Below, piece by piece: positions 8,940 to 51,748 of a stretch of 53,720 nucleotides of DNA. The position numbers were made by a program, and so were the translations under genes. Within the stretch, counting starts at the first letter, position 1. Every line of letters begins with the position of its first letter. The notes under the pieces are model-generated. The model had not been told where the DNA came from. It saw only the letters and a list, made by a program, of their open reading frames with translations, and ran no database searches. The stretch lies in the IMG/VR virus record IMGVR_UViG_3300035204_001410, positions 1-53,720 of that record. One strand, 5' to 3'. Source of the stretch: a virus.

Positions 8940-8948
8940 TTCTTAGAA

Positions 8949-33211: not shown

Positions 33212-33376
33212 TTAGCGAGTTAAAATGTCAATGGCGTCGATCATTTGGAATCCGTAATCCAAGATAACCGCAACAAAGATAATTGTCACAGCAAATTTGG
33301 TCATCGGCATCAACACTTCGTCGGCAAACATCTTGTTAGCTTCGTCGTTCCATTTTTGTAGGTTGTTTTTCTTCAT
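33212..33376 (-). CDS. Small membrane protein (54 aa), leaderless
   Basis: The ATG at 33376 (MKKNNLQKWNDEANK) was chosen because the frame upstream translates through the promoter. A transmembrane helix (FAVTIIFVAVILDYGF) follows. The -10 box ends 6 nt before the start codon. Unknown function. Confidence 0.7.
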   Translation of the reverse strand: MKKNNLQKWNDEANKMFADEVLMPMTKFAVTIIFVAVILDYGFQMIDAIDILTR

Positions 33377-33382
33377 TGGTAC

Positions 33383-33411
33383 AATATAACACAGATTAGG
33401 TTGCTTGTCAA
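33383..33411 (-). promoter_or_regulatory. Leaderless sigma70-type promoter
   Basis: The -35 TTGACA (33406-33411), 17-nt spacer and -10 TATATT (33383-33388) stand 6 nt before the ATG at 33376. Transcription should begin at or next to the A of the start codon. Confidence 0.85.
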
Positions 33412-33422
33412 GTGGTTTTTGT

Positions 33423-33632
33423 CTACCACTCAGGATATTCTTGTGCATCGTGCCACGCTTCGTCTGCGTATGAACCACAATCATCATCCAAAGTGTATTC
33501 AGCCAGAAAAGGTGTCGTAGGCAGATGCCCCACGCGCTCCAAAGATGGGGTTTCTGTTGGAACTTCTATTCCCTCGCATACTTGGTCGAGAAGTCGTTGG
33601 GTTTCTGGGTCAAAGTCAGGTCCGTTTTTCAT
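33423..33632 (-). CDS. Hypothetical acidic small protein
   Basis: A 69-aa protein starting at 33632 (MKNGPDFDPETQRLL), the first ATG after the promoter. Acidic with no recognised motif; C-terminus DEAWHDAQEYPEW. The -10 box is 8 nt upstream. Confidence 0.65.
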   Translation of the reverse strand: MKNGPDFDPETQRLLDQVCEGIEVPTETPSLERVGHLPTTPFLAEYTLDDDCGSYADEAWHDAQEYPEW

Positions 33633-33640
33633 AATATAAT

Positions 33641-33669
33641 AATATAACACAAGTTAAAGCATTTGTCAA
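33641..33669 (-). promoter_or_regulatory. Leaderless-type sigma70 promoter
   Basis: TTGACA (33664-33669), 17 nt, TATATT (33641-33646); the ATG at 33632 is 8 nt beyond. The TGA stop of the upstream gene lies inside the -35 box. Confidence 0.85.
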
Positions 33670-33974
33670 TCGATTTTTTCATATACTGTATGAGAACTTA
33701 ACCCCACTTCTTCTTTTTCATCTTCCCAATAGTATCCCTCTGGAGGCATGACTTCATCAAGGGCAGTACCTTTAGCTTGACTGATGATATAGGGCTTAAT
33801 CTCGTTCATATCAACGTTTCCCCATTCATTCTCAAAGCCCATCACAAGACCAAAGGCGATGCCGTTTTCGTCTGTCTCTCCGAGGTAATATTCCCAAAAG
33901 TTTTTTAGAATGATATGCTGGTGAACGGCGAAAGGTTCGCCACCTTGGTTGCTGATGATGTTTCTCGGTTTCAT
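33666..33974 (-). CDS. Hypothetical protein
   Basis: A 102-aa protein (MKPRNIISNQGGEPFAVHQ) with an IILKNFWEYYLGETDENG region. No family recognised. Its stop codon is contained in the next promoter's -35 hexamer. Confidence 0.7.
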   Translation of the reverse strand: MKPRNIISNQGGEPFAVHQHIILKNFWEYYLGETDENGIAFGLVMGFENEWGNVDMNEIKPYIISQAKGTALDEVMPPEGYYWEDEKEEVGLSSHTVYEKID

Positions 33975-33980
33975 TGTTAC

Positions 33981-34009
33981 AATATAACACAGAAACGAAT
34001 GCTTGTCAA
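33981..34009 (-). promoter_or_regulatory. Leaderless sigma70-type promoter
   Basis: TTGACA (34004-34009), 17 nt, TATATT (33981-33986); 6 nt then the ATG at 33974. The hairpin module HR1 lies directly upstream. Confidence 0.85.
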
Positions 34010-34010
34010 G

Positions 34011-34086
34011 TGTTGTGAATAACTTTCTGAAAAATAGGGGGGGTAAGTTGGCATACGACGTGCGGCAGCTTCCATGCCAAGTTACT
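34011..34086. repeat. HR1: DnaA-box + hairpin module
   Basis: tgtgaataa (34014-34022; minus strand TTATTCACA, a TTATNCACA-type DnaA box) is followed by arms gtaagttggcat (34043-34054) and atgccaagttac (34074-34085) around the loop acgacgtgcggcagcttcc. One arm mismatch. It lies between the promoter of 33974 and the preceding gene. Confidence 0.8.
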
Positions 34087-34153
34087 AGTCAATCATTGCT
34101 TTGTGCATAAGTAAAATGACAATGCCTGTCCAAATAATATAAAAAGTTTCCAT
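34085..34153 (-). CDS. Micro membrane peptide (22 aa)
   Basis: METFYIIWTGIVILLMHKAM is nearly all hydrophobic: one likely membrane helix. Its ATG directly follows the previous stop codon (TAAATG), a translational-coupling arrangement. No homology claim; small but the context is repeated at 40810 and 46983. Confidence 0.45.
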   Translation of the reverse strand: METFYIIWTGIVILLMHKAMID

Positions 34154-34378
34154 TTATATATCTTCGTTTAGTTCACTAATCAAGTGAGCGATTGTTTGAA
34201 GTGTTTTAGATGGGTCTGGTGATTGTCGTATCATCACAGCCATAACTAGTATTGGGTCATAATCTGATTTGCTACACTCCCTCCATTGGCCTACTTCTTT
34301 TACCCATAACGCAGATTGCCTTGTCCTGCTGTTTTGAAATATGGCAAAGTCTGGTGCTTTCTTATCCATACCATTCAT
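34154..34378 (-). CDS. Hypothetical protein
   Basis: A 74-aa protein starting at the ATG at 34378 (MNGMDKKAPDFAIFQ), which overlaps the upstream stop as TAATG. A longer frame from 34390 is less likely. Contains RTRQSALWVKEVGQWREC. Unknown family. Confidence 0.65.
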   Translation of the reverse strand: MNGMDKKAPDFAIFQNSRTRQSALWVKEVGQWRECSKSDYDPILVMAVMIRQSPDPSKTLQTIAHLISELNEDI

Positions 34379-34557
34379 TACACGTACCATCTCCCGTTCA
34401 TATACATTGGGCCTTGCGGAAGCTCAATGTTTGTCACGGTATCTTTGACAATCGTAGCTTTTGCCTGAAGGTCAGCACGTAGCTTTTTCGCTTCTTCTGC
34501 TGTGGCTCGCAAAGAAACAATCTCTGCTTCGAGGGGTAGGTTTTTTTCGTTGTTCAT
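34378..34557 (-). CDS. Hypothetical coiled-coil protein, leaderless
   Basis: A 59-aa protein starting at 34557 (MNNEKNLPLEAEIV). The charged helix SLRATAEEAKKLRADLQ suggests a coiled coil. Upstream frame translates the promoter. Confidence 0.65.
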   Translation of the reverse strand: MNNEKNLPLEAEIVSLRATAEEAKKLRADLQAKATIVKDTVTNIELPQGPMYMNGRWYV

Positions 34558-34564
34558 TAGATAC

Positions 34565-34593
34565 AATATAACACAGGTTGTAGGTTTTGTCAA
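34565..34593 (-). promoter_or_regulatory. Leaderless sigma70-type promoter
   Basis: TTGACA (34588-34593), 17 nt, TATATT (34565-34570); the ATG at 34557 follows after 7 nt. Confidence 0.85.
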
Positions 34594-34610
34594 GGGCCGT
34601 AATGACTTTT

Positions 34611-34775
34611 TTATTCCATTTCCCGCCAGCTTTCGCCATCGTCGTAAGAAATCAAATCCAATGCGTGAATCACGATTGCCTCTTGTCCAGCATAATCAAA
34701 GCTGTGTACTTCATACTCTATGCCGTCTACCACGGCGTTTCCGTTTTCGTTTAGTTCTATGTCGTTCATAATCAT
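34611..34775 (-). CDS. Hypothetical protein
   Basis: A 54-aa protein starting MIMNDIELNENG; GIEYEVHSFDYAGQEAIVIHALD follows. The ATG at 34775 is 6 nt beyond a TATATT box. No recognised motif. Confidence 0.6.
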   Translation of the reverse strand: MIMNDIELNENGNAVVDGIEYEVHSFDYAGQEAIVIHALDLISYDDGESWREME

Positions 34776-34781
34776 GTGTCT

Positions 34782-34787
34782 AATATA
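34782..34787 (-). promoter_or_regulatory. Candidate leaderless -10 box
   Basis: TATATT, 6 nt before the ATG at 34775, but no TTGACA lies at 17 nt (the hexamer there is TACGGA). A weaker member of the family or a degraded copy. Confidence 0.4.
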
Positions 34788-34813
34788 CCATAGGGGGTGA
34801 GACATCCGTAGTC

Positions 34814-35014
34814 CTACCATTCACTTTTTATCATTAAACTTTTCAGCATTTTAATCCGTCTTGGTGGGATATCCCCACCTTGCGGAAGGCTAGGGTAATG
34901 CTCTACCTCTACCCAACCATTAACGGGATGCCTTGGGCTCAGGTCGCTAGTGACGATTCCCAACCATGCACCATTGTCACGGTGACGCACTTTAGTTCCT
35001 GCCTTAATCTTCAT
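34814..35014 (-). CDS. Hypothetical basic protein, leaderless
   Basis: A 66-aa protein starting at 35014 (MKIKAGTKVRHRDNG). GTKVRHRDNGAWLGIVTSD and GWVEVEHYPSLP resemble a small SH3-like barrel. Upstream frame runs through the promoter. Confidence 0.65.
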   Translation of the reverse strand: MKIKAGTKVRHRDNGAWLGIVTSDLSPRHPVNGWVEVEHYPSLPQGGDIPPRRIKMLKSLMIKSEW

Positions 35015-35020
35015 TGGTAC

Positions 35021-35049
35021 AATATAACATACAAAAGGGTGTTTGTCAA
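35021..35049 (-). promoter_or_regulatory. Leaderless sigma70-type promoter
   Basis: TTGACA (35044-35049), 17 nt, TATATT (35021-35026); ATG at 35014 after 6 nt. HR2 lies just upstream. Confidence 0.85.
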
Positions 35050-35064
35050 GGGGTGAGGTACGAT

Positions 35065-35127
35065 TGTGAATAACTTTTTTCGGGTAAGTTGGCATGCGGC
35101 GTGCGGCAGCTTCCATGCCAAGTTACT
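35065..35127. repeat. HR2: DnaA-box + hairpin module
   Basis: tgtgaataa (35065-35073) and arms gtaagttggcat (35084-35095) / atgccaagttac (35115-35126), with an 8-bp perfect core ttggcatg/catgccaa. Same loop as HR1. Confidence 0.85.
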
Positions 35128-35174
35128 AATTAAAAAGGCGCAGCGAGCGAAAACATGAAAAAACTCGCTGCACC
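35128..35174 (-). terminator. Terminator after cell-wall hydrolase
   Basis: Stem ggcgcagcgag (35137-35147) / ctcgctgcacc (35164-35174), 11 bp with one G-T, and a minus-strand TTTTTAATT tract after it. It follows the hydrolase stop at 35183. Confidence 0.85.
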
Positions 35175-35182
35175 CTTTTTGC

Positions 35183-35716
35183 TCACCGTAATTTGTAGAA
35201 TAGATGCCGACCAATTCGTGCAACGGGTAGTTTACCTTTTGTCCAATACGGGCGCACACCGATAGCGTGGTAATGATCTGCAAATCCAGTAAATTTACGA
35301 TTGATAAGTGGTGGTGCTAGACTGGCTAATTGCATAGCAACCTTACCCTCATTCGATGCCCACAACATTGCTGGCGGCACTGGGATACGTCCATTATTCC
35401 AACAAGAGAATTGTTTTCTTTGCAAGCAAACTTGATGCGGTTGTAATTTCCTGTTTATAGCCCTTTGTTGTATAACAGCTAGAACAGCATGCATACCAAC
35501 AGCACCCTCTCCACGAGCTTCACCAAGTAAGGTTAAAGCAACGATCTGTATTGGTGATAAGCCTAGCCTATAAACTGGATGAACAGGTAAGGCAGGTCTT
35601 GGAGTATATGTTGGTTTTGGGTAGTTACTAGGCAAAACCCTAGGTTTAGGTTGTGCAAGAGCGACAGTGCAAACTATAAACACTAGCACCGTAATAATCA
35701 TCCAATGTTTTTTCAT
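35183..35716 (-). CDS. Cell-wall hydrolase (SleB/CwlJ-like) endolysin
   Basis: A 177-aa protein with an N-terminal signal or membrane segment (WMIITVLVFIVCTVALA) and a Pro-rich linker. The catalytic region is LTLLGEARGEGAVGMHAVLAV, then QQRAINRK, then FSCWNNG: the Hydrolase_2 (SleB/CwlJ) pattern, with Glu in LGEARGEG. It would cut peptidoglycan; the signal segment implies secretion independent of a holin or after membrane insertion. It has its own promoter and terminator. Confidence 0.88.
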   Translation of the reverse strand: MKKHWMIITVLVFIVCTVALAQPKPRVLPSNYPKPTYTPRPALPVHPVYRLGLSPIQIVALTLLGEARGEGAVGMHAVLAVIQQRAINRKLQPHQVCLQRKQFSCWNNGRIPVPPAMLWASNEGKVAMQLASLAPPLINRKFTGFADHYHAIGVRPYWTKGKLPVARIGRHLFYKLR

Positions 35717-35722
35717 AATTTT

Positions 35723-35750
35723 AGTATAAAGGTTTTTTTAATTTAGTCAA
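35723..35750 (-). promoter_or_regulatory. Leaderless-type promoter (TTGACT/TATACT)
   Basis: TTGACT (35745-35750), 16 nt, TATACT (35723-35728); the ATG at 35716 lies 6 nt beyond. The TAA stop of the gene at 35743 is partly within the -35 box (TTGACTAA). Confidence 0.8.
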
Positions 35751-35907
35751 GGGTTTTTTTGTTTATCTTTTTGTATTCAGCCCAAATCTTTTTATGCCAC
35801 TCTTTATAAGCGTCACTTTCAAGGGCTTCACTCATTTCTTTTTTACGTCTCAAGTAAAACTCTTTACTTGTTTCGTTTTTGTTGAATCTCCTATTCTCGT
35901 ACTTCAT
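35743..35907 (-). CDS. Small basic protein (54 aa)
   Basis: Read from sequence: MKYENRRFNKNETSKEFYLR, continuing as a Lys/Glu-rich helix to AEYKKINKKTLD. Its ATG overlaps the upstream stop as ATGA; coupling. Unknown function. Confidence 0.6.
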   Translation of the reverse strand: MKYENRRFNKNETSKEFYLRRKKEMSEALESDAYKEWHKKIWAEYKKINKKTLD

Positions 35908-36209
35908 GAAAGTAATTCAGAAGGAGGAGAAGTAGCAAGGCCAGAGTTAGGCAATGGTGGCAACTTTGGTAACGGCAACGGTGGCAACGGTGGTAATTGT
36001 ACTTTTGCGATTGGGCTGGAAAGCGAATTCTCGTTTACCGCGAAATGCTTCCTCAAGATGGGAATTGCTTTCTTGATGTTATAAAGCCGATAAGCCTCGG
36101 CTTTAGCCTCTCCGTGAGTCTGCCCCAACTTCTTGGCGGCAATGATGTGGTTGGTTACTTGTGCCGCTTTAACGGCGTTCTTTGCTTGGTAGGTTTTGTA
36201 GGTTTTCAT
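35904..36209 (-). CDS. Hypothetical protein with Pro-rich tail, leaderless
   Basis: A 101-aa protein starting at 36209 (MKTYKTYQAKNAVKAAQ). The N-terminal two thirds are basic and helical. The tail is a proline/leucine repeat (VQLPPLPPLPLPKLPPLP). Unknown function. Confidence 0.65.
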   Translation of the reverse strand: MKTYKTYQAKNAVKAAQVTNHIIAAKKLGQTHGEAKAEAYRLYNIKKAIPILRKHFAVNENSLSSPIAKVQLPPLPPLPLPKLPPLPNSGLATSPPSELLS

Positions 36210-36216
36210 TAGATAT

Positions 36217-36245
36217 AATATAACACAGGTTAGGTTGATTGTCAA
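36217..36245 (-). promoter_or_regulatory. Leaderless sigma70-type promoter
   Basis: TTGACA (36240-36245), 17 nt, TATATT (36217-36222); the ATG at 36209 is 7 nt beyond. Confidence 0.85.
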
Positions 36246-36248
36246 TAG

Positions 36249-36428
36249 TTAAACGAAATAAATTTGATGAATAATTACAAACCCTAATGCGAGGGATGCG
36301 CCCAAACAGGCAGAAATAATCCACTCGCAATAACGAATTTGTTTCTTGCAACGGGAGATGTCGGCTTGCAGTTCGAGGTTGCTGCGTTGTTGTTTGTAGC
36401 TGGTGTAGGTTTCTTTAATTGCTTTCAT
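36249..36428 (-). CDS. Small membrane protein (59 aa), leaderless
   Basis: MKAIKETYTSYKQQRSNLE, a basic helical segment, then a transmembrane helix (WIISACLGASLALGFVII). The ATG is 6 nt after the -10 box. Confidence 0.65.
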   Translation of the reverse strand: MKAIKETYTSYKQQRSNLELQADISRCKKQIRYCEWIISACLGASLALGFVIIHQIYFV

Positions 36429-36434
36429 TAGTAT

Positions 36435-36463
36435 AATATAACACAGGTTAGTGGGTTTGTCAA
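36435..36463 (-). promoter_or_regulatory. Leaderless sigma70-type promoter
   Basis: TTGACA (36458-36463), 17 nt, TATATT (36435-36440); ATG at 36428 after 6 nt. The TAG stop of the upstream gene abuts the -35. Confidence 0.85.
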
Positions 36464-36667
36464 CTAAAATGTTCTATGTTTTAAGTCTTCGGGTGTGGTG
36501 GTTGGTGGTCGCCAACCCTCATCACACTTACAATACTTCGGACAATCATCCTCTGCGCTTCCCTCTTTTGCTACTGTCTCGTGACAGGTAGGACACAGAA
36601 ACAATTGCCTAATCGCTGGATGATCCAAGCAGAATCGCTTTGTTAATGGGCCGAATTTAGTTGTCAT
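36464..36667 (-). CDS. Small zinc-ribbon-like protein
   Basis: A 67-aa protein with paired cysteines (LCPTCHETV ... DCPKYCKCDEGW) that could bind zinc. ATG at 36667 overlaps the upstream stop (ATGA). Unknown role. Confidence 0.65.
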   Translation of the reverse strand: MTTKFGPLTKRFCLDHPAIRQLFLCPTCHETVAKEGSAEDDCPKYCKCDEGWRPPTTTPEDLKHRTF

Positions 36668-36825
36668 ACTAATTCTTTTGTTGCTGTTGGTTCCTTACCC
36701 TCTCGGACTAGGTTAACGTCGAAACAGACTGCGCTTAATAGTTTGCCCTTGTCTGCGTTTCGGTTGCTCGCAATAATTGCCATTGTGAAGATGAAATCGA
36801 TTGCTTTTGATTCTTTAACTGTCAT
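36664..36825 (-). CDS. Hypothetical small protein (53 aa)
   Basis: MTVKESKAIDFIFTMAIIAS, then SNRNADKGKLLSAVCFDVNL. Coupled on both sides by ATGA overlaps, which supports real translation. No motif. Confidence 0.6.
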   Translation of the reverse strand: MTVKESKAIDFIFTMAIIASNRNADKGKLLSAVCFDVNLVREGKEPTATKELV

Positions 36826-37133
36826 TTTACTTCCTCATATACGGGGTTAGTCATACTTGCTCTAGTGCGGTACTCCCACTCTGGAGACATCACGCTAACA
36901 GGTTCCTCACCAGTTTGCACAAACAACTTGCCAACGGCATAATCTAGCCACCAACGCTTTTGTTGATTCCAGTAGAAGTCAATCGCTTTTTCCATATCGG
37001 CAACAAACTTCTGTGTCGCTGGTTTGTGCATACTACTAAAGTGAGCGCAGCACTCATCAAATCCATCCCAGCCAGTAGTTTCCTTTTTGCCTACGGCGTG
37101 AAGTTCAATATAGTAATGTTTTTCGTTTTCCAT
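36822..37133 (-). CDS. Hypothetical protein, leaderless
   Basis: A 103-aa protein starting at 37133 (MENEKHYYIELHAV). Contains TTGWDGFDECCAHFSS and KAIDFYWNQQKRWW. No family recognised. The long upstream extension in this frame reads through the promoter. Confidence 0.65.
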   Translation of the reverse strand: MENEKHYYIELHAVGKKETTGWDGFDECCAHFSSMHKPATQKFVADMEKAIDFYWNQQKRWWLDYAVGKLFVQTGEEPVSVMSPEWEYRTRASMTNPVYEEVK

Positions 37134-37139
37134 TGGTAC

Positions 37140-37168
37140 AATATAACACACAAATGACGGTTTGTCAA
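37140..37168 (-). promoter_or_regulatory. Leaderless sigma70-type promoter
   Basis: TTGACA (37163-37168), 17 nt, TATATT (37140-37145); ATG at 37133 after 6 nt. The upstream stop TGA is inside the -35. Confidence 0.85.
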
Positions 37169-37404
37169 ACGATTTTTTTAACTTTCTTAAATCCGTTTTC
37201 GCAGTAGTCCGTAAGCCCTTGCTTGTTAATGAAATGCTCTGCCAATTCGTCAAAGTCATCCTCACCTGTTCCCATGTTGTTGGCGTGCTGCAATGCCCGA
37301 AACAAGCCGCAAGCCTCATAATGATCGTCGCAAGCCTTGGCGGCAGCGAGGTTCTGCTTACGGGTGGTGGGGACTACGTTTTGAAGTTTACCGTTCTTAA
37401 TCAT
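37165..37404 (-). CDS. Hypothetical protein, leaderless
   Basis: A 79-aa protein starting at 37404 (MIKNGKLQNVVPTTR). ACDDHYEACGLFRALQHANN suggests a helical protein. Its stop is within the next -35 box. Confidence 0.65.
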   Translation of the reverse strand: MIKNGKLQNVVPTTRKQNLAAAKACDDHYEACGLFRALQHANNMGTGEDDFDELAEHFINKQGLTDYCENGFKKVKKIV

Positions 37405-37410
37405 TAGTAT

Positions 37411-37439
37411 AATATAACACAAGAACGTCACTTTGTCAA
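37411..37439 (-). promoter_or_regulatory. Leaderless sigma70-type promoter
   Basis: TTGACA (37434-37439), 17 nt, TATATT (37411-37416); ATG at 37404 after 6 nt. HR3 is just upstream. Confidence 0.85.
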
Positions 37440-37443
37440 GCGT

Positions 37444-37507
37444 TGTGAATAACTTTTTTTAGGGTAAGTTGGTATGCGGCGTGCTGCAGCTCCCATGCCA
37501 AGTTACT
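37444..37507. repeat. HR3: DnaA-box + hairpin module
   Basis: tgtgaataa (37444-37452), arms gtaagttggtat (37464-37475) / atgccaagttac (37495-37506). The TAA stop of the upstream gene lies in the right arm. Confidence 0.85.
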
Positions 37508-37907
37508 CAACTCTTACTTGAATGTCACTGTCTAGGCCAAGCTGCTTTATTAGCTTCTTCGTTATTTCGTCTTTAGTTATTTCATGCCCTGATTTATCTT
37601 TTGGCTTATCGCCCATAACTTCCTCCCACGGCACATCAATACGCCAACCAAAGGGTAAACACTCATGCCACACACCGTCAATGTTAATGTAGTCACCCAC
37701 CATCATTGAACGAACATTAAGATTCAAGAACTGCTGTGACTCATTGCCTGATCCCGCATTCCATTGCTCCCAAACAAAGTCGAGAATCTCATGATCTGTG
37801 TATTCCCGTTCTGCGTTTGCGTCTAACATCCAATCATAACAGAATTGCCAATCAGAGGAAATCCGTTTGCTGGTGTCGTCGTGATATCTAACTGATACGT
37901 GTTTCAT
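37503..37907 (-). CDS. Hypothetical protein
   Basis: A 134-aa protein starting at 37907 (MKHVSVRYHDDTSKR), 1 nt after the upstream stop. Contains WHECLPFGWRIDVPWEEV. A longer start at 37967 would overlap the upstream gene heavily. Unknown function. Confidence 0.65.
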   Translation of the reverse strand: MKHVSVRYHDDTSKRISSDWQFCYDWMLDANAEREYTDHEILDFVWEQWNAGSGNESQQFLNLNVRSMMVGDYINIDGVWHECLPFGWRIDVPWEEVMGDKPKDKSGHEITKDEITKKLIKQLGLDSDIQVRVE

Positions 37908-37908
37908 G

Positions 37909-38475
37909 TTAATTACTTTCTTGCGCCTCTGGTGTTGGAACTTGCGCCCATACTTTTGTATGCCCATTCTCTGTGCCTGTCAAAATGACTTTGCGAGCAG
38001 TAAAGATAGGTTCAATCTTATCTTCAATACTACCACGAAAAGGATTAGTATCCTTCGTTACAAAGGTTCGATACTTATAAGGGTTATAAAGAACCTCGCG
38101 CCATTCGTAGCCTTCGCGCTCATCCATATACTGTTTTTCGAAATACTTACTTGCATCTTTGGCGTGACCCTTCTCAAACGCATCCATATCAGCATAAGCC
38201 CATACAGCATTAACTATGCAACCACGAATAACTGCATGGACATTTTTGCGCTGTTCATCACGCACGCGCTGATTCCCTTTCGGGCCTACGGCAAAGGTGA
38301 CAGGGTACTTGGTGTTACCGTCCATGATGACGGTATAGGCGTGACCCTCAACGAGTCCATCCGAGCATTTGCGCACAGAATAAACTGTTTCGTCTCTCCA
38401 GTTAAGATTGCGATAGACTTCCCGACGCATATGCGCCACGGCCTTTTTAGTGTCAGTGATATCGTGTAAAGGCAT
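37909..38475 (-). CDS. Hypothetical protein
   Basis: A 188-aa protein starting at 38475 (MPLHDITDTKKAVAH); the frame upstream overlaps the 64-aa gene. Mixed, with YKYRTFVTKDTNPFRG and VILTGTENGHTKVWAQ. No recognised family. Confidence 0.65.
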   Translation of the reverse strand: MPLHDITDTKKAVAHMRREVYRNLNWRDETVYSVRKCSDGLVEGHAYTVIMDGNTKYPVTFAVGPKGNQRVRDEQRKNVHAVIRGCIVNAVWAYADMDAFEKGHAKDASKYFEKQYMDEREGYEWREVLYNPYKYRTFVTKDTNPFRGSIEDKIEPIFTARKVILTGTENGHTKVWAQVPTPEAQESN

Positions 38476-38479
38476 AGGA

Positions 38480-38674
38480 TTAGTCTCCAAAAACATTCTC
38501 CCACTCTTCTGGAGTGATGCCTGTTTTAATGAACTCACGCTCATCTGCCGAGAGGTTCGGCATGGCGTTTTGAATGAGTTCGCCACCTTGCCAAGAAGCG
38601 ATCTGCTCCTCAGTAACGTCAATATCCATGACGTTTTTGTTACCACTGAATGGGGATTCTTTCTCGATCAACAT
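38480..38674 (-). CDS. Hypothetical acidic protein, near-leaderless
   Basis: A 64-aa protein starting at 38674 (MLIEKESPFSGNKNV), rich in Glu with a helical DEREFIKTGITPEEWENV. The next gene starts 4 nt after its stop, so the two form an operon. Confidence 0.65.
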   Translation of the reverse strand: MLIEKESPFSGNKNVMDIDVTEEQIASWQGGELIQNAMPNLSADEREFIKTGITPEEWENVFGD

Positions 38675-38679
38675 AATAT

Positions 38680-38708
38680 AATATACCACAAGAACGTTGC
38701 TTTGTCAA
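38680..38708 (-). promoter_or_regulatory. Near-leaderless sigma70-type promoter
   Basis: TTGACA (38703-38708), 17 nt, TATATT (38680-38685); ATG at 38674 after 5 nt. Confidence 0.85.
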
Positions 38709-38723
38709 GGGGTTTTTTGCTTT

Positions 38724-39041
38724 TTATATCGCTTTCATGGGTAAGCGATGACCCTTCTTGAATTCGTCAAGACTCATGCTCCACACAGTCTCATCATGTT
38801 GCCCATGCTCACCCCAACGATGCACGATCTCTGCCTCACCAACAACACCACCAACGGCAGCAGCATCAGTAAGCAGCTGGTGCGCCTCTTTCAGTAGGGT
38901 GTTGAGACTGTCCCTGTTCTTCGGCAGCATATGGTGTCGGTCACCCAAGAACCAAAGCTCGTAGGTGTGCGTGGATAGACCAAGGTGCTGACGGACTGCT
39001 TCGGCTACTTGAGGAGAGGGGCTTGTTACTTCGATCTTCAT
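38724..39041 (-). CDS. Hypothetical protein, leaderless
   Basis: A 105-aa protein starting at 39041 (MKIEVTSPSPQVAEAVRQ). QHLGLSTHTYELWFLGDRHHM precedes a helical half. No recognised motif. Confidence 0.65.
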   Translation of the reverse strand: MKIEVTSPSPQVAEAVRQHLGLSTHTYELWFLGDRHHMLPKNRDSLNTLLKEAHQLLTDAAAVGGVVGEAEIVHRWGEHGQHDETVWSMSLDEFKKGHRLPMKAI

Positions 39042-39047
39042 ACCTAT

Positions 39048-39076
39048 AATATAACACCGAAACACCCTCCTGTCAA
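39048..39076 (-). promoter_or_regulatory. Leaderless sigma70-type promoter
   Basis: TTGACA (39071-39076), 17 nt, TATATT (39048-39053); ATG at 39041 after 6 nt. Confidence 0.85.
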
Positions 39077-39090
39077 GGGCTGGCGGTACG

Positions 39091-39155
39091 ATTGTGAATA
39101 ACTTTTTCAGAGTAAGTTGGCATGCTCGCTGCTCCCGCGCCGACCACAAGTTACT
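39091..39155. repeat. HR4: DnaA-box + hairpin module (degenerate right arm)
   Basis: tgtgaataa (39093-39101) and gtaagttggcat (39112-39123), but the right arm is cacaagttac with a divergent loop, so pairing is poorer. The TAA of the 47-aa gene is at its edge. Confidence 0.75.
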
Positions 39156-39294
39156 GGCAGCCGCAACACGGCGCATCCTCACACCCACACCGTAGGCCGG
39201 GATCATCATACACAGGCTCGGCGTCGAGGTCATCTATCCACGCACACAGGTCGGCATGGTCATCGTCTGAAAACTGGCTATAATGATCGTTCAT
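39151..39294 (-). CDS. Small acidic Cys-rich protein (47 aa), leaderless
   Basis: MNDHYSQFSDDDHADLCAWI, then DDLDAEPVYDDPG, ending CGCEDAPCCGCQ. Asp-rich with a C-terminal cysteine cluster that could bind metal. ATG is 6 nt after the -10 box. Confidence 0.65.
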   Translation of the reverse strand: MNDHYSQFSDDDHADLCAWIDDLDAEPVYDDPGLRCGCEDAPCCGCQ

Positions 39295-39300
39295 AATAAG

Positions 39301-39329
39301 AATATAACACGCAAAAGGCTATCTGTCAA
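39301..39329 (-). promoter_or_regulatory. Leaderless sigma70-type promoter
   Basis: TTGACA (39324-39329), 17 nt, TATATT (39301-39306); ATG at 39294 after 6 nt. An inverted TTATTCACC lies just upstream near 39338. Confidence 0.85.
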
Positions 39330-39341
39330 GGGGAAAGTTAT

Positions 39342-39527
39342 TCACCACCCCCGTGTGTTCTCGCGTATAGAGTAGCTGCTCAAGTCTTGGTCTGTGAGCT
39401 TGTCCCATCCGCACTTACACTCACCGTACCACGTGCCACCCCACACCTTTGCACCGGGGTACTCTTGGAAGGGTGCTTCATACTCCATCTCGACGGGCGC
39501 ACCACATTTTTCGCATTTGATTTTCAT
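39342..39527 (-). CDS. Small zinc-ribbon-like protein, leaderless
   Basis: MKIKCEKCGAPVEMEYEA, then WYGECKCGWDKLT: a four-cysteine ribbon (CEKC/CKC). 61 aa. ATG is 7 nt after the -10 box. Confidence 0.7.
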   Translation of the reverse strand: MKIKCEKCGAPVEMEYEAPFQEYPGAKVWGGTWYGECKCGWDKLTDQDLSSYSIRENTRGW

Positions 39528-39534
39528 TAGTTAT

Positions 39535-39563
39535 AATATAACACAAAAGAATGTAACTGTCAA
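39535..39563 (-). promoter_or_regulatory. Leaderless sigma70-type promoter
   Basis: TTGACA (39558-39563), 17 nt, TATATT (39535-39540); ATG at 39527 after 7 nt. Confidence 0.85.
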
Positions 39564-39572
39564 GTGATTTTA

Positions 39573-39607
39573 TAAAAAAAATGAGATGCTTCTTGTGAGG
39601 GTGCATC
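39573..39607 (-). terminator. Terminator of the structured ncRNA
   Basis: gatgc/gcatc stem (39585-39589 with 39603-39607), then TCATTTTTTTT on the minus strand. It ends the RNA that starts near 40144. Confidence 0.7.
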
Positions 39608-40144
39608 CCAACCCACGACCACTTAAGTTTATTCTGGTTGGCCGCTTAACCGCGTTTAGGTTTCTTACTCGCTCCAGTTACCTTCAGGCTCATCGCGCCT
39701 GACCACGTTCCGACTTCACCCTCGGTGGGCTTGTGTTGTTGTTGCCTACTAGCGTTATTGCCAGCAGGGCGTGTTCTTGTTACCTCGCCACGGCTTCCCA
39801 CATTGCCGACAGAAGGATTACTTATCTGCGTCCGGTTGAGGCGAGGGTAAATTACTGCTGGTGTGAGGGGCTCGAACCCTCCCCCGTCCCTATCGTGTCA
39901 CCGTCTAGTTTCAATGCATCTCCACTAGGGGCTTTCAGCCACGGGCGGTATTGCGGTACTTGCCGCCTTATAGGCCCGATACCCGTAATGGGGCGGTAAC
40001 CGTGCGACAGAGGTTATAACCGAATACTTCCAGTCTCACCAACATAAAATGTGTTCTCCTAGTCGTCACGCTGTGTCAGCGAGGTCTTTGACACTTCGAG
40101 CTTCAAGCGTAGGTTTTCGGAGAACTAAACTTCTCTCAAAGAAC
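39575..40144 (-). ncRNA. Large structured non-coding RNA (about 570 nt)
   Basis: No convincing open frame. A TTGACA/TATATT promoter (40151-40179) and a terminator bound it. Paired arms are visible throughout: GTTCTCC/GGAGAAC (40119-40125 with 40053-40059), GTGTCA/TGACAC (40089-40094 with 40073-40078), GGCTGAAAGCC, CTAGT/ACTAG, UUACCCUCGCC/GGCGAGGUAA (39840-39850 with 39780-39790), CCAGCAG/CTGCTGG (39855-39861 with 39761-39767), TCAGGC/GCCTGA and CCAACC/GGTTGG. A perfect T-arm-like hairpin, GAGGG-TTCGAGC-CCCTC, lies near 39866-39882. It is not an ordinary tRNA or rRNA. Possible relatives are the giant ornate phage RNAs such as GOLLD, which often associate with tRNA-like parts; I cannot test that here. 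Function unknown. Confidence 0.8.
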
Positions 40145-40150
40145 TACTAT

Positions 40151-40179
40151 AATATACCACGGAAACACCCTTTTGTCAA
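40151..40179 (-). promoter_or_regulatory. Promoter of the structured ncRNA
   Basis: TTGACA (40174-40179), 17 nt, TATATT (40151-40156); expected start about 40144. Same consensus as the mRNA promoters of the region. Confidence 0.85.
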
Positions 40180-40184
40180 GCGGT

Positions 40185-40440
40185 TTTTTAACTTTTTTTA
40201 ATTACCCTAATTAATCGCATTTAATTACCCCTAATTAGCCGCTCACAAATGATCGACAAATCAATTTGCCAACCAAAAAACGCAAAAAATGATCGACAAA
40301 GTTTCGTAAAAAGGGGTGTTTTCTCCGATGTGAAATTCGCTGTTTTTAAGAAACTGTCAGTAAGTTGTTAGTAACTTTCTCTGGTAAGTTGTGATCCGCG
40401 CGGGAGCACGCCCCATGCCAAGTTACTCGCGCCTGTTCCG
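40185..40440. other. Origin-like AT-rich direct-repeat region, with HR5
   Basis: Noncoding. aaatgatcgacaaa occurs at 40247-40260 and 40287-40300, spaced exactly 40 bp; TAATTACCC(C)TAATTA occurs at 40199-40213 and 40222-40237. A hairpin of the HR family (gtaagttgtgat 40384-40395 / atgccaagttac 40415-40426) closes it, without a DnaA box. The features suggest a replication or protein-binding locus. Confidence 0.5.
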
Positions 40441-40476
40441 AGTTACTTTCTTATGGGATGGGGTTTATTTCGATAT

Positions 40477-40659
40477 TTAATTGTTACTATTTAATCTAGC
40501 TTTTTCTGTAAAGCCTTCTTCGGAAAGGTAACAAGCAATATTTTCTAATTCTTCTTGAGTCAATGATTCGTCAGGAAAAATTATTTGTTGCTTGTCATAA
40601 TCTATTAATACAGTATTTCCATAAACGTTAATTTCTTCTATTTGATTTTGAGCTTTCAT
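40477..40659 (-). CDS. Hypothetical small protein
   Basis: A 60-aa protein (MKAQNQIEEINVYGNTVL) with a VLIDYDKQQIIFPDE strand. Its start overlaps the upstream gene by 32 nt. Confidence 0.6.
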   Translation of the reverse strand: MKAQNQIEEINVYGNTVLIDYDKQQIIFPDESLTQEELENIACYLSEEGFTEKARLNSNN

Positions 40660-40807
40660 TATCGATTAGTCTTTGCATTATATCTTCCCAGCGTTGCCTG
40701 TCTAATCCAATTTCATCTTCGTTTAACTGTATTGGTAACATTTCCCAAAAGCTAGTTTGCGAAAAGGTTTGAATTAGGTTCAGCCGGTCTTTGTCTGTTA
40801 TATTCAT
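40628..40807 (-). CDS. Hypothetical helical protein
   Basis: A 59-aa protein starting at the ATG at 40807 (MNITDKDRLNLIQTFSQ); GGAG lies upstream. Helical, with QRWEDIMQRLIDNE. No family. Confidence 0.6.
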   Translation of the reverse strand: MNITDKDRLNLIQTFSQTSFWEMLPIQLNEDEIGLDRQRWEDIMQRLIDNESSKSNRRN

Positions 40808-40809
40808 GA

Positions 40810-40881
40810 TTATAATTTTCTCCACATCTGTATTCCTAAGGCTATGATGCCTATAAACAAAAGTATGGTTATAATTTCCAT
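40810..40881 (-). CDS. Micro membrane peptide (23 aa)
   Basis: MEIITILLFIGIIALGIQMW is a single membrane helix. An AAGGA Shine-Dalgarno lies 6 nt before the ATG, which supports translation. Resembles the peptides at 34085, 46536 and 46983 only in hydrophobicity. Confidence 0.55.
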   Translation of the reverse strand: MEIITILLFIGIIALGIQMWRKL

Positions 40882-40895
40882 GGGGATCCTTTCTG

Positions 40896-41633
40896 TTATG
40901 CTGTTGCTAGTTGTTGTTTGTTTGCTTTTTTGATTGCTGACAACGCCACGCTTGCCACACTACCCTTGGGCTGCGTACCATGAATCAACAACGCAAAATT
41001 CTCTTTACCAAATGCTGCGTGTGTGTCGTCGTGGTCAATTTCCAAGTCACGCTCTTTTGCTTCTTGCTCGCTGTAAACGACAAGAGCTTCTTTCCATCCG
41101 TGCAAATCAATTAGCTCGTCGTGCTTGCCACCACGGGAAGCAGTTAAAACTAAATTTTCGGGAAGGGCAAACTGTTTGAAGAAATGCAAGCTCTTGGAAT
41201 AAGAGTAAAACACTTTGTCGGGATTCCTTTTGGCAACTTCAATCCACGCTTGCAAATACTTGGCGTTAAAATAATCACCGCCAACGTGAACGCGCATAAT
41301 GTCGAACTTTTTTGGAAGTGATTCGCAAATCAAATCCGCGCAAGCATCGACACCATCCACAAGTGAATCTTTTAGCAAGCCAAGGTTATGCCAAACCATT
41401 TTTCGCAATGATGGATACGTTGCTTCTGCACTAGCAGCAAAACAACGAAACTGCGTGTCAGGCCCATCTTGAATCTTGCCCGTTTGCCTATCTGCACGCG
41501 ACAAACAATCTTTTGCACCGGGGCAAGTATGCCCTGCGGGAAGCGTAAAGGTTTTGAGGGTTAGGCCGAGCTTCCGAATCATTTTCTTGAGCTTGGAGTT
41601 CGGATCTCCAAATCGTAGTAGGTTGTTGTTCAT
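40896..41633 (-). CDS. Gp88-family protein, leaderless
   Basis: A 245-aa protein starting at 41633 (MNNNLLRFGDPNSKLKK); the upstream frame reads through the promoter. TLPAGHTCPGAKDCLS and IMRVHVGGDYFNAKYLQAWIE are the gp88-family hallmarks (first seen in mycobacteriophages). Function of the family is not settled. The ATG is 6 nt after the -10 box. Leads the array after the two small genes downstream. Confidence 0.8.
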   Translation of the reverse strand: MNNNLLRFGDPNSKLKKMIRKLGLTLKTFTLPAGHTCPGAKDCLSRADRQTGKIQDGPDTQFRCFAASAEATYPSLRKMVWHNLGLLKDSLVDGVDACADLICESLPKKFDIMRVHVGGDYFNAKYLQAWIEVAKRNPDKVFYSYSKSLHFFKQFALPENLVLTASRGGKHDELIDLHGWKEALVVYSEQEAKERDLEIDHDDTHAAFGKENFALLIHGTQPKGSVASVALSAIKKANKQQLATA

Positions 41634-41639
41634 AATAAC

Positions 41640-41668
41640 AATATAACACAGGTTTTGGGTTTTGTCAA
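41640..41668 (-). promoter_or_regulatory. Leaderless sigma70-type promoter
   Basis: TTGACA (41663-41668), 17 nt, TATATT (41640-41645); ATG at 41633 after 6 nt. The upstream TGA stop lies in the -35. Confidence 0.85.
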
Positions 41669-42126
41669 ACGGTTTGTAATCTGCTGCGTTGGCTTGCAGC
41701 GTTTTGCTTATATTCTTCTTCATCAAACGCCCTTACTTGAGCAGGGTTTTCTCTTGCCTCTGTACGGCCTATCGAATAATCATAAACGATTGGATCAGTA
41801 GACACAAACGCTTCGGAATTTTCCTTTAGTTCTTCCATACGTCGATTTGCAAGCCTTTGAGCCTCGCTCTTAACGCCGCCTTTTTCTCCCTTGAATCTGT
41901 TAGGGTACTTGTTAAGAAGTAAATGCAATGACGAGTTGAAAAAATACTTTTCTAGCTTTTCTTCACTGGTGGTAATATAAGCAAACGTATCACACATCCA
42001 ATGTAGTCCTCCGCCCGTTGCTTGGTGGTTCCAGAAGGAATAATACTGTTCTATAATTTTTTGTTCATCATTAGATTCAATACCTACGAGAGCAACTGTT
42101 CCGAGTGGTTGATATACGAGTTTCAT
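41665..42126 (-). CDS. Hypothetical protein
   Basis: A 153-aa protein (MKLVYQPLGTVALVG). GGGLHWMCDTFAYITTSEE and a charged C-terminal half are visible. No recognised motif. -10 box 9 nt upstream. Confidence 0.65.
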   Translation of the reverse strand: MKLVYQPLGTVALVGIESNDEQKIIEQYYSFWNHQATGGGLHWMCDTFAYITTSEEKLEKYFFNSSLHLLLNKYPNRFKGEKGGVKSEAQRLANRRMEELKENSEAFVSTDPIVYDYSIGRTEARENPAQVRAFDEEEYKQNAASQRSRLQTV

Positions 42127-42135
42127 AACTAATAC

Positions 42136-42164
42136 AATATAACACGTAAAAGGCTATCTGTCAA
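42136..42164 (-). promoter_or_regulatory. Sigma70-type promoter, near-leaderless
   Basis: TTGACA (42159-42164), 17 nt, TATATT (42136-42141); ATG at 42126 after 9 nt, so the leader is only a few nucleotides. Confidence 0.8.
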
Positions 42165-42309
42165 GGGGTTTCTGATGTTTTTTTCTACGACGAAAAGACC
42201 CTTTACCCTTTCTCACGCGATGTTCCCTAGATGCACTACCCATAAGTCCGTCTTTGTTCACTCGCGCGCGAGGGTGGGCGCGTTGGTTTCTTTGTCTTTT
42301 CCTTTTCAC
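42154..42309 (-). CDS. Highly basic small protein (51 aa), leaderless GTG
   Basis: Starts at GTG 42309: V/MKRKRQRNQRAHPRARV, ending KGKGSFRRRKKHQKPLDR. More than a third of residues are Arg/Lys, so it may bind nucleic acid. The GTG lies 6 nt after the -10 box. Upstream ATG frames would translate the promoter. Confidence 0.6.
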   Translation of the reverse strand: MKRKRQRNQRAHPRARVNKDGLMGSASREHRVRKGKGSFRRRKKHQKPLDR

Positions 42310-42315
42310 AATAAC

Positions 42316-42344
42316 AATATACCACAAGAACATCACTTTGTCAA
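42316..42344 (-). promoter_or_regulatory. Leaderless sigma70-type promoter (GTG start)
   Basis: TTGACA (42339-42344), 17 nt, TATATT (42316-42321); GTG at 42309 after 6 nt. Confidence 0.8.
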
Positions 42345-42378
42345 GGGTTGTGAATACTTTGTTAATAACTTTCTCAGG

Positions 42379-42421
42379 GTAAGTTGGCATAAAAGCTGCC
42401 GCACGCCGCATGCCAAGTTAC
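42379..42421. repeat. HR6: hairpin module with inverted loop
   Basis: gtaagttggcat (42379-42390) and atgccaagttac (42410-42421) keep the order of the other copies, but the loop aaaagctgccgcacgccgc is the reverse complement of the loop in HR1 and HR2. The nearby DnaA box is degenerate (tgtgaatac). Confidence 0.85.
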
Positions 42422-42437
42422 CACAAAAACTTACTCA

Positions 42438-42462
42438 CAAAAAAACCCCGCGCATGGCGGGG
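42438..42462 (-). terminator. Rho-independent terminator
   Basis: ccccgc/gcgggg stem (42446-42462) with a TTTTTTT tract on the minus strand. It ends the DUF932 gene transcript. Confidence 0.9.
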
Positions 42463-42483
42463 TGTGCTGGTAGGTTATTAGCG

Positions 42484-43374
42484 TTATTCCGTAACGGTCA
42501 CAACCACATCCTTCTCCTTCGCGGGAGTCCAGAGCTTTTTCAAGCGGTTAGGGTTGCGAGCAGCAAGGTCAAAACGCCGCAGCACGTTAGTAGTGACACG
42601 GTTGGCATACTCAAAACGAGAGTCAGCAACCTCATGCGTAACGTGTTGAGTCACGGCATTGTTAAGGTTGTAAAGGTTGCGAGCCTTATCCTCATCGTGT
42701 GTAGGGTTAACCCAGATTTTTGCAATCTCCTCGCGTAGCTTTTCAGAGATAACCTTGCCTTGGGTGAGAGTCTTGAGAATGTTCAAGCCCTGTTCTTCGC
42801 TCAAGTCAACTTGAGCCAAACGACCATAAACGCTGACACTATCCTTGAGCTTGGCAAGAGCATTGTCAAGCGCGTCATCAGTGACAAGGTCAGCAATGTT
42901 TAGTTGTTTGGAGTGCTTTTTCACCATGTCCACCTCTTTTTCGGTGGTGGTCATACCGTTGGTGCAAACGAGACGAACCAAGCCAAGCGCAAACGAAACA
43001 CGCAAGGAACGGTCAAACGAGTTTTGTGCCGTCAAGCGGTAAGCCATAACGTCACCCACTTGCGGTACTTCAGACTGAAACAGGTCGCCACCTAAATCAT
43101 ACTGCGCTCGCATTTTCGCGCCACCTTCAGTGACAATCACCTTGCGAGTAACGTCGATACCGCGAGCCTCAAAAGCCTCATCGGCACGGGCAAGAACGTC
43201 ACGGTGATTCACAAGACCGTAACGCTCTGAAGTCCAACCCAGAATCTCGTTGTTGTCCTCACGGACGTTCATAAAATAGCCAGACTTACCGCCTTTTACT
43301 GGGTGAGGAACCTCCACTTGGTTCACGGTGAAATCGAAATCAGTGTTAATGGATTGTTTTGCTGCGATACTCAT
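42484..43374 (-). CDS. DUF932 phage/plasmid protein
   Basis: A 296-aa protein. GWTSERYGLVNHRDVLARADEA, YRLTAQNSFDRSLRVSFALG and LVCTNGMTT are DUF932 (TIGR03299-like) hallmarks, widespread in phages and plasmids; function unknown. Unlike its neighbours it has a leader of about 40 nt from the promoter at 43421. Confidence 0.85.
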   Translation of the reverse strand: MSIAAKQSINTDFDFTVNQVEVPHPVKGGKSGYFMNVREDNNEILGWTSERYGLVNHRDVLARADEAFEARGIDVTRKVIVTEGGAKMRAQYDLGGDLFQSEVPQVGDVMAYRLTAQNSFDRSLRVSFALGLVRLVCTNGMTTTEKEVDMVKKHSKQLNIADLVTDDALDNALAKLKDSVSVYGRLAQVDLSEEQGLNILKTLTQGKVISEKLREEIAKIWVNPTHDEDKARNLYNLNNAVTQHVTHEVADSRFEYANRVTTNVLRRFDLAARNPNRLKKLWTPAKEKDVVVTVTE

Positions 43375-43420
43375 TTTTTTCTTTCTGTTAAGGGTTAGTT
43401 TCTTTCGCTTTGTTACTTAT

Positions 43421-43448
43421 AATATACCACAATTTTTAAGAAAGTCAA
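43421..43448 (-). promoter_or_regulatory. Promoter with about 40-nt leader (TTGACT/TATATT)
   Basis: TTGACT (43443-43448), 16 nt, TATATT (43421-43426); the ATG at 43374 is about 40 nt past the expected start. The upstream TGA stop lies in the -35. Confidence 0.75.
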
Positions 43449-43663
43449 GGCGTAAAAGTGATTTTCTTAAACTTTTTTCTAGTTGACACGCAGCCCTCGC
43501 ATTCACAACCCTCAAGCACTAGGGACAGACTCAATTTTTCGTTAGGAGTTAACCCTTCAAGCGGGGGAGCGGCACAAGTCAGGCACTTACCGTTGTTTTC
43601 CTTAAGCAGTAAGGCGTCATTGCCGCACTGATTGCAAGGTTCAAAGGTGGTTTGCGTTGTCAT
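43445..43663 (-). CDS. Small zinc-ribbon-like protein, leaderless
   Basis: A 72-aa protein starting at 43663 (MTTQTTFEPCNQCGNDALL) with CNQCG, CLTC and CECEGC cysteine pairs. ATG 6 nt after the -10 box. Confidence 0.7.
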   Translation of the reverse strand: MTTQTTFEPCNQCGNDALLLKENNGKCLTCAAPPLEGLTPNEKLSLSLVLEGCECEGCVSTRKKFKKITFTP

Positions 43664-43669
43664 TGTTAC

Positions 43670-43698
43670 AATATACCACAAGAATGTCGCTTTGTCAA
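43670..43698 (-). promoter_or_regulatory. Leaderless sigma70-type promoter
   Basis: TTGACA (43693-43698), 17 nt, TATATT (43670-43675); ATG at 43663 after 6 nt. Confidence 0.85.
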
Positions 43699-43702
43699 GG
43701 GT

Positions 43703-43774
43703 TGTGAATAACTTTCTTATGGTAAGTTGTGGTAAGTTGGCATCCGGCGTGCTGCGCGTTTTTTACCAAGTTAC
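43703..43774. repeat. HR7: DnaA-box + hairpin module (degenerate)
   Basis: tgtgaataa (43703-43711), a duplicated gtaagtt, gtaagttggcat (43732-43743) and the weaker right arm taccaagttac (43764-43774). Confidence 0.75.
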
Positions 43775-45417: not shown

Positions 45418-45654
45418 TTACCAGTTTTCTTCATCTACTTGAACCAGCGGCTCAAGTTCCTCACTCTTAAAGTCAACTGGTTTCTTCGCTTTAATGTTTG
45501 TCGTACTCGCTTCAAATTGCTCAACCTCAAGATTCAGAGTCTCCGCAAACCGACGAGAGACAACAACAACAGCGTCCTCTTTTAATACGCGATTCAACTC
45601 CTTCAGATTCACTTGGAGGAAGCTACCCGCGCCTTTTGTCTTTCCTCTTGCCAT
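45418..45654 (-). CDS. Hypothetical protein upstream of RuvB-like gene
   Basis: A 78-aa protein (MARGKTKGAGSFLQVNL) rich in charged residues, with a VSRRFAETLNLEVEQFE helix. ATG is 6 nt after the -10 box (leaderless). Confidence 0.65.
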   Translation of the reverse strand: MARGKTKGAGSFLQVNLKELNRVLKEDAVVVVSRRFAETLNLEVEQFEASTTNIKAKKPVDFKSEELEPLVQVDEENW

Positions 45655-45660
45655 ACTACT

Positions 45661-45688
45661 AATATACCAGCTTTTTTAAAAAAGTCAA
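45661..45688 (-). promoter_or_regulatory. Leaderless-type promoter (TTGACT, AT-rich spacer)
   Basis: TTGACT (45683-45688), 16-nt spacer tttttaaaaaagctgg type, TATATT (45661-45666); ATG at 45654 after 6 nt. Confidence 0.75.
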
Positions 45689-48742: not shown

Positions 48743-48770
48743 AGTATAACATCTTTTTTAATTAAGTCAA
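48743..48770 (-). promoter_or_regulatory. Promoter of rIIB-like gene (TTGACT/TATACT)
   Basis: TTGACT (48765-48770), 16 nt, TATACT (48743-48748), about 35-nt leader. The TGA stop of the upstream gene is in the -35. Confidence 0.75.
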
Positions 48771-49395: not shown

Positions 49396-49464
49396 GGTAA
49401 CGAGGGAAAACCTACTAACCCTCGCTACCCTACCAAGAATGGACAACCTACGAACCATTCTTGG
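49396..49464 (-). other. Twin hairpins with shared loop at rIIA 3' end
   Basis: ggtaacgaggg/ccctcgctacc (49396-49406, 49419-49429) and ccaagaatgg/ccattcttgg (49433-49442, 49455-49464). On the minus strand both loops contain GTAGGTT. The second hairpin holds the rIIA stop codon. Confidence 0.75.
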
Positions 49465-51720: not shown

Positions 51721-51748
51721 AATATACCATTTTTTTTAAATAAGTCAA
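51721..51748 (-). promoter_or_regulatory. Promoter of rIIA-like gene (TTGACT/TATATT)
   Basis: TTGACT (51743-51748), 16-nt AT-rich spacer, TATATT (51721-51726); about 26-nt leader to the ATG at 51688. Confidence 0.75.

Follow-up and report, generated by a model that had tools for sequence, protein, structure and literature searches.

Near-consensus promoters placed at start codons point to leaderless messages in an uncultured phage lineage

The cI gene of phage lambda is transcribed from the promoter PRM. Its message is leaderless, and messages of this kind are bound by 70S ribosomes via the 5'-terminal AUG, while 5' leaders and structure hinder their use (PMC9031893). Most middle and late transcripts of the Thermus thermophilus phage phiYS40 are likewise leaderless (PMC3594737). 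Among cellular genes, -10 boxes adjoining open reading frames (ORFs) are common in Deinococcus-Thermus and Actinobacteria; a -10 box lying a few base pairs (bp) upstream of an ORF yields a leaderless mRNA, and an added -35 box at 17 bp raises expression (PMC12340547, PMC3160421). Here, we describe an array of sigma70-type promoters set directly before start codons in the IMG/VR virus record IMGVR_UViG_3300035204_001410, positions 1 to 53,720 (the window; 53,720 nucleotides (nt)), and in its relatives.

The window contains 18 perfect TTGACA-N17-TATATT sites, all on the minus strand and between 33383 and 43698, compared with a mean of 0.01 and a largest value of 1 in 100 dinucleotide shuffles. 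With d defined as the number of nt between the end of the -10 box and the start codon, 17 of the 18 sites were followed by a start codon at d = 5 (one), 6 (eleven, including one GTG), 7 (three), 8 (one) or 9 (one), and the ORFs concerned were all small (47 to 245 amino acids, aa). The initial annotation had counted 17 start codons 5–9 nt after a TATATT box, eleven of them at exactly 6 nt, and the same counts were recovered; its pairing of TATATT with TTGACA at 17 nt was borne out by the 18 exact minus-strand matches. When a minus-strand position was drawn at random from 33–44 kb, an ATG opening at least 30 codons followed at 5–9 nt with p = 0.045 and at exactly 6 nt with p = 0.009, giving binomial probabilities of about 4e-20 and 2e-16, respectively, for the observed counts. 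The LCYIV-type peptides by which the starts had originally been noticed, produced when longer frames read through the promoter, are also present (for example, LCYIVPMKKNN and FVCYIVPMENEK). Three further short-distance promoters have a 16-nt spacer (45688, 35750 and 46172), and the structural-gene part of the window holds no further strong site of the array type.

Relatives were retrieved via the DUF932 protein (63–80% identity) and the clamp loader (45–58% identity), and the resulting lineage set comprised nine IMG/VR contigs (the window, G001–G003, G005, G006, G008, G009 and G011; about 720 kb, 35–41% G+C). The short-distance promoters of the window, with their orthologues in these contigs, are as follows.

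33383..33411 (-): promoter TTGACA-17-TATATT, 6 nt before the ATG of ORF 33212-33376 (54 aa); orthologue in G006
33641..33669 (-): promoter, 8 nt before the ATG of ORF 33423-33632 (69 aa)
33981..34009 (-): promoter, 6 nt before the ATG of ORF 33666-33974 (102 aa); orthologues in G002, G003 and G006 at d = 6, 6 and 7
34565..34593 (-): promoter, 7 nt before the ATG of ORF 34378-34557 (59 aa); orthologue in G001 at d = 6
35021..35049 (-): promoter, 6 nt before the ATG of ORF 34814-35014 (66 aa); orthologues in G001 and G002 at d = 6
36217..36245 (-): promoter, 7 nt before the ATG of ORF 35904-36209 (101 aa)
36435..36463 (-): promoter, 6 nt before the ATG of ORF 36249-36428 (59 aa)
37140..37168 (-): promoter, 6 nt before the ATG of ORF 36822-37133
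37411..37439 (-): promoter, 6 nt before the ATG of ORF 37165-37404 (79 aa); G001 and G002 at d = 6, G003 at d = 7
38680..38708 (-): promoter, 5 nt before the ATG of ORF 38480-38674
39048..39076 (-): promoter, 6 nt before the ATG of ORF 38724-39041
39301..39329 (-): promoter, 6 nt before the ATG of ORF 39151-39294 (47 aa); G001 at d = 6
39535..39563 (-): promoter, 7 nt before the ATG of ORF 39342-39527 (61 aa)
40151..40179 (-): the 18th identical promoter, without a start codon; precedes a structured RNA at about 40145-39600
41640..41668 (-): promoter, 6 nt before the ATG of ORF 40896-41633 (245 aa); G001, G002 and G008 at d = 6
42136..42164 (-): promoter, 9 nt before the ATG of ORF 41665-42126 (153 aa)
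42316..42344 (-): promoter, 6 nt before the GTG of ORF 42154-42309 (51 aa); the orthologues of five relatives have ATG instead, at d = 5–7
43670..43698 (-): promoter, 6 nt before the ATG of ORF 43445-43663 (72 aa); G001 and G002 at d = 6
45661..45688 (-): promoter TTGACT-16-TATATT, 6 nt before the ATG of ORF 45418-45654 (78 aa); four relatives at d = 6, G005 at 9
35723..35750 (-): promoter TTGACT-16-TATACT, 6 nt before the ATG of the cell-wall hydrolase ORF 35183-35716

To extend the comparison to the lineage, we scanned the nine contigs with the pattern TTGAC-N-(16–18)-(-10) and recorded how far each -10 box lies from a start codon that opens a frame of 30 codons or more. The scan returned 166 promoter sites, 111 of them with d of 5–9 nt (d = 6 in 63, 7 in 17, 9 in 12, 5 in 11 and 8 in 8), while the reversed-sequence control gave 13 sites and no distance below 28. 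The figure of seventeen in the initial annotation is correct and describes one local part of a clade-wide habit. A scan of -10 hexamers before ORF starts, made independently of the -35 box, also peaked at 6 nt, with 19 per 1000 compared with 1.6 at control ATGs. The distance was kept between orthologues: 41 of 80 short-distance pairs had d = 6 in both members, with 56% identity in the spacer and 52% in the discriminator, and the clamp loader, whose homology begins near the first residues, has d = 6 in G005, G006 and G008. Outside the lineage, 79 unrelated viral loci picked by one such site had other distances mostly of 20–31 nt, which is the usual leader length. Single sites with the strict pattern were widespread in viral contigs and arrays were rare among the matches listed, which included two further small arrays (L085 and L151).

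The start regions of the short-distance genes were consistent with leaderless translation. ATG was used in 108 of 111 starts, and Shine-Dalgarno (SD) 5-mers were found at only 3 of the 111 (97% without SD). Zheng et al. define TA-led genes by a TANNNT box whose first T lies about 12 bp upstream of the ORF and by the lack of an upstream SD; at d = 6 the first T lies 12 nt upstream, and SD 5-mers are as scarce as just stated. Comparison of orthologues gave mismatch rates of 0.16, 0.11 and 0.36 at codon positions 1, 2 and 3 within codons 2–12; substitutions are thus concentrated on third positions from codon 2 onward, which argues for translation in frame from the promoter-proximal ATG. This coding signature, together with clamp-loader homology from the first residues, argues strongly against wrongly called start codons. 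The first 40 nt of the short-distance genes are A-rich and fold weakly (-2.1 kcal/mol, compared with -6.3 for their nt 41–80). Long ORFs of any kind also fold weakly over their first 40 nt (-2.9 kcal/mol), so weak folding is no more than permissive for a leaderless message.

The promoters themselves are close to consensus. TTGACA and TATAAT-like hexamers stand 16–18 nt apart, as expected of the sigma70 type; an extended -10 (TGN) is present at nearly all window sites and at 56 of the 63 lineage sites with d = 6, and the 20 nt upstream of the -35 box form an A-rich, UP-like stretch. As read from the DNA, the UP-like stretch, TTGACA and TGN-extended -10 together have the layout expected of strong sigma70 promoters. 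Several -35 boxes in the window, G001 and G002 are in addition preceded, at 22–48 nt, by the palindrome GTAACTTGG..CAACTTAC, which lacks a T-run and was not found in G003, G005, G006, G008, G009 or G011. The palindrome may act as a terminator, insulator or recombination unit. Its seven window copies are as follows.

43722..43774 (-): palindrome, about 23 nt upstream of the -35 box
42379, 40384, 39112, 37464, 35084 and 34043 (-): the other copies

Directly upstream of five promoters lies TTATTCACA, a match to the DnaA box (34014, 35065, 37444, 39093 and 43703, minus strand). Relatives often carry TATTAACA in that place; therefore, an A/T-rich, UP-like role is more likely, and the assignment as DnaA boxes was rejected.

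The same promoter type also precedes structured RNAs. The RNA of the 18th promoter includes a tRNA-like domain.

39856..40044 (-): cloverleaf domain of the 18th promoter's RNA, with the internal near-invariant element GAAAGCCCCTAGTGGA..CTAGACGGTGAYACGATA

The domain consists of an acceptor stem, a variable D-like arm, an arm bearing the 45-nt near-invariant element, and a T-arm with TTCGA. Comparison of the window with seven other contigs shows covariation in the arms, the D-like arm not being resolved in the window copy, and the RNA was also found in L061–L063, L065–L068, L070 and L071. ARAGORN and Rfam models gave no match to tRNA, tmRNA or any Rfam family, and at the sensitivity used the element was found neither in cultured phages nor in 84,980 species genomes; it is possibly a new RNA family. 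A manA RNA (Rfam RF01745) lies near the cloverleaf RNA in two contigs (L061 1307-1483 and L066 11124-11317), scoring above the gathering threshold only in L061, where it is directly downstream. In G001, this promoter type is followed by another structured RNA, unlike the first (L009 17399-17700), with a 5'-terminal stem AGTTCGTGAG..CTCACGGACT. This conserved stem starts 5–6 nt after the -10 box, in keeping with its being a rough internal mark of the transcription start.

A second class of genes in the lineage is leadered. Promoters of rIIA, rIIB and DUF932 lie 32–50 nt from the start codon in most relatives, the leaders are A-rich, and SD was found in 2 of the 24 leadered starts of the lineage scan. 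The window copies are as follows.

43421..43448 (-): DUF932 promoter TTGACT-16-TATATT; 46-nt A-rich leader without SD (43420-43375), ORF 42484-43374
48743..48770 (-): rIIB-like promoter TTGACT-16-TATACT; 38-nt leader (48742-48705), ORF 47859-48704
51721..51748 (-): rIIA-like promoter TTGACT-16-TATATT; 32-nt leader (51720-51689), ORF 49448-51688

Exceptions are the DUF932 orthologue in G011, at 6 nt, and the rIIA orthologue in G009, at 8 nt; genes can therefore switch between the leadered and the short-distance class.

Beyond rIIA and rIIB, the window encodes a PhoH-like protein, a clamp-loader-like ATPase, a sigma-70 region 2 protein, a T4-type terminase large subunit and a tubulin-like GTPase. 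The last is a tubulin/FtsZ-family protein of the structural region (15391-16548, minus strand; Pfam PF00091, E-value 3.5e-13). At 1-8942 (minus strand), a frame that contains collagen-like GXY runs stays open for at least 2980 codons and continues beyond the window end. No close cultured phage was found for the window, and a search of 84,980 species genomes with a clamp-loader profile, made for the host, returned no relative. The relative G005 carries a phage-borne tmRNA gene (L041 2872-3274; Rfam E-value 3.5e-54). It matches Caulobacter phages across only 33 nt, and this hint of a Caulobacter host was rejected as host evidence.

Transcription that starts 6–7 nt after the -10 box would place the 5' end on the AUG or only a few nt from it. 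The claim in the initial annotation that the mRNAs should begin no more than a few nt from the start codon is supported, as a prediction, by the spacing, its mode at 6 nt and its conservation among orthologues, and is further favoured by the absence of SD, the coding signature from the ATG and the predicted unstructured 5' ends. We consider it highly probable that the short-distance genes have mRNA leaders of 0–3 nt. The region would then hold early/middle genes of uncultured phages in an array that gives nearly every small gene or short operon a separate strong promoter of host sigma70 type, with the start codon at the transcription start of that promoter, so that the mRNA would open with the AUG or at most about 3 nt before it. 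Messages without SD would be translated by the leaderless route, in which a 70S ribosome with initiator tRNA engages the 5'-terminal AUG, and the A-rich, unstructured first 40 nt may aid it. We infer the exact transcription start, the use of host sigma70, the 70S route and the early/middle timing, the last because the promoters are of host type and absent from the structural region. Several points weigh against this account. The host polymerase may shift its start by 1–3 nt and so produce leaders of 1–3 nt, chiefly in genes with d = 7–9; read-through from upstream could add leadered copies of each message; one gene with d = 9 (45920) has GGAGG within its 9 nt; and we infer host tolerance of leaderless messages from the phage alone.

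One alternative is an explanation by very short real leaders, in which transcripts start 1–5 nt before the AUG and ordinary non-SD 30S initiation, not the 70S route, acts on the A-rich region. It overlaps in part with the leaderless reading, which allows 0–3 nt. The range of d from 5 to 9 suits it, as does the stem of the non-coding RNA, which starts 5–6 nt after the -10 box, that is, 1–2 nt before the position of the AUG at d = 6; moreover, the leaders of rIIA, rIIB and DUF932 are likewise A-rich and without SD, suggesting that the host may not need SD. However, a mode at exactly 6 nt, the usual distance from -10 to +1, is sharper than a rule of keeping leaders short would predict, and ATG use of 97% suits leaderless initiation, leaving short leaders as a tentative alternative. 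The distance could also be a by-product of gene swapping, with movable promoter and stem-loop cassettes packed tightly in a plastic region. References given in PMC4503421 describe such PeSL cassettes, which pair an early promoter with a terminator-type stem-loop, in T4-like phages. The small variable genes between core modules fit this picture, as do the palindromes that precede several -35 boxes of the window, G001 and G002 by 22–48 nt. Yet most promoters have no palindrome, the palindromes have no T-run, six contigs lack them and still hold d = 6, and core genes such as the clamp loader follow the distance rule. Cassettes would account for the units and not for the distance, and are compatible with leaderless messages; as the explanation of the spacing we find them unlikely.

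Two remaining explanations fare worse. That the motif is no promoter, or that starts were miscalled and the true ones lie downstream behind an SD, is very improbable given the consensus -35 and -10 boxes with TGN and UP-like stretch, the same element before structured RNAs, the coding signature from codon 2 and the clamp-loader homology from the first residues. Chance, or spurious matches to a loosely defined motif in AT-rich DNA, has a negligible probability and was ruled out by the shuffles (0.01 against 18), the reversed control, the binomial values of about 4e-20 and 2e-16, and the relatives.

If leaderless messages are indeed made from this array, promoters determine where start codons stand throughout a natural phage clade. 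The genomes would then supply over 100 ready-made start regions for leaderless translation, with promoters near consensus, as well as rIIA, rIIB and DUF932 as matched genes with leaders. They would also allow one to ask whether phages outside Thermus use leaderless translation as a strategy of takeover. The habit carries a prediction about the host's ribosomes, and gene callers can misplace starts here when longer frames read the promoter as protein. A bolder proposal is that, across the whole lineage, the early/middle programme has gone over to leaderless messages translated by a route other than the host's main one, possibly with a phage-caused change of initiation factors as proposed for phiYS40, and with a new tRNA-like structured RNA on the same promoter type; we regard this full combination as doubtful.

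The initial annotation had called such uniform, repeated leaderless promoters unusual, which is right for phages with sigma70-type promoters; the arrangement is not, however, without precedent, as phiYS40 (PMC3594737) shows, and searches of the literature for leaderless jumbo phages or cyanophages yielded no further one. Like phiYS40, the present lineage appears to express many genes as leaderless mRNAs. The leaderless transcripts of phiYS40 are reported from experiment, are middle and late, and occur in a thermophile of a phylum whose own genes are often leaderless, whereas those of the present lineage are predicted from sequence and lie outside the structural region behind a consensus -35 and an extended -10. 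Genes with an adjoining -10 motif in Deinococcus-Thermus, and TANNNT-led genes in Actinobacteria, share the -10 box close to the ORF; these cellular promoters are mostly without a -35 box, as shown for Deinococcus, whereas in the phage lineage the -35 box, spacer, TGN and UP-like stretch are near consensus. The PeSL cassettes of T4-type phages, compared by description only (PMC4503421), resemble the array as units of promoter and stem-loop repeated among small genes of a plastic region, and differ in that the palindromes of the lineage have no T-run and occur in just three closely related contigs and that the distance from -10 to ATG is fixed. Lambda cI is the classic phage leaderless message, but it is a single gene, in contrast to the genome-wide arrangement of this lineage. 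Since phiYS40 and the -10-adjacent cellular genes are already known, the novelty lies in the near-consensus, lineage-wide form that the arrangement takes in uncultured phages.

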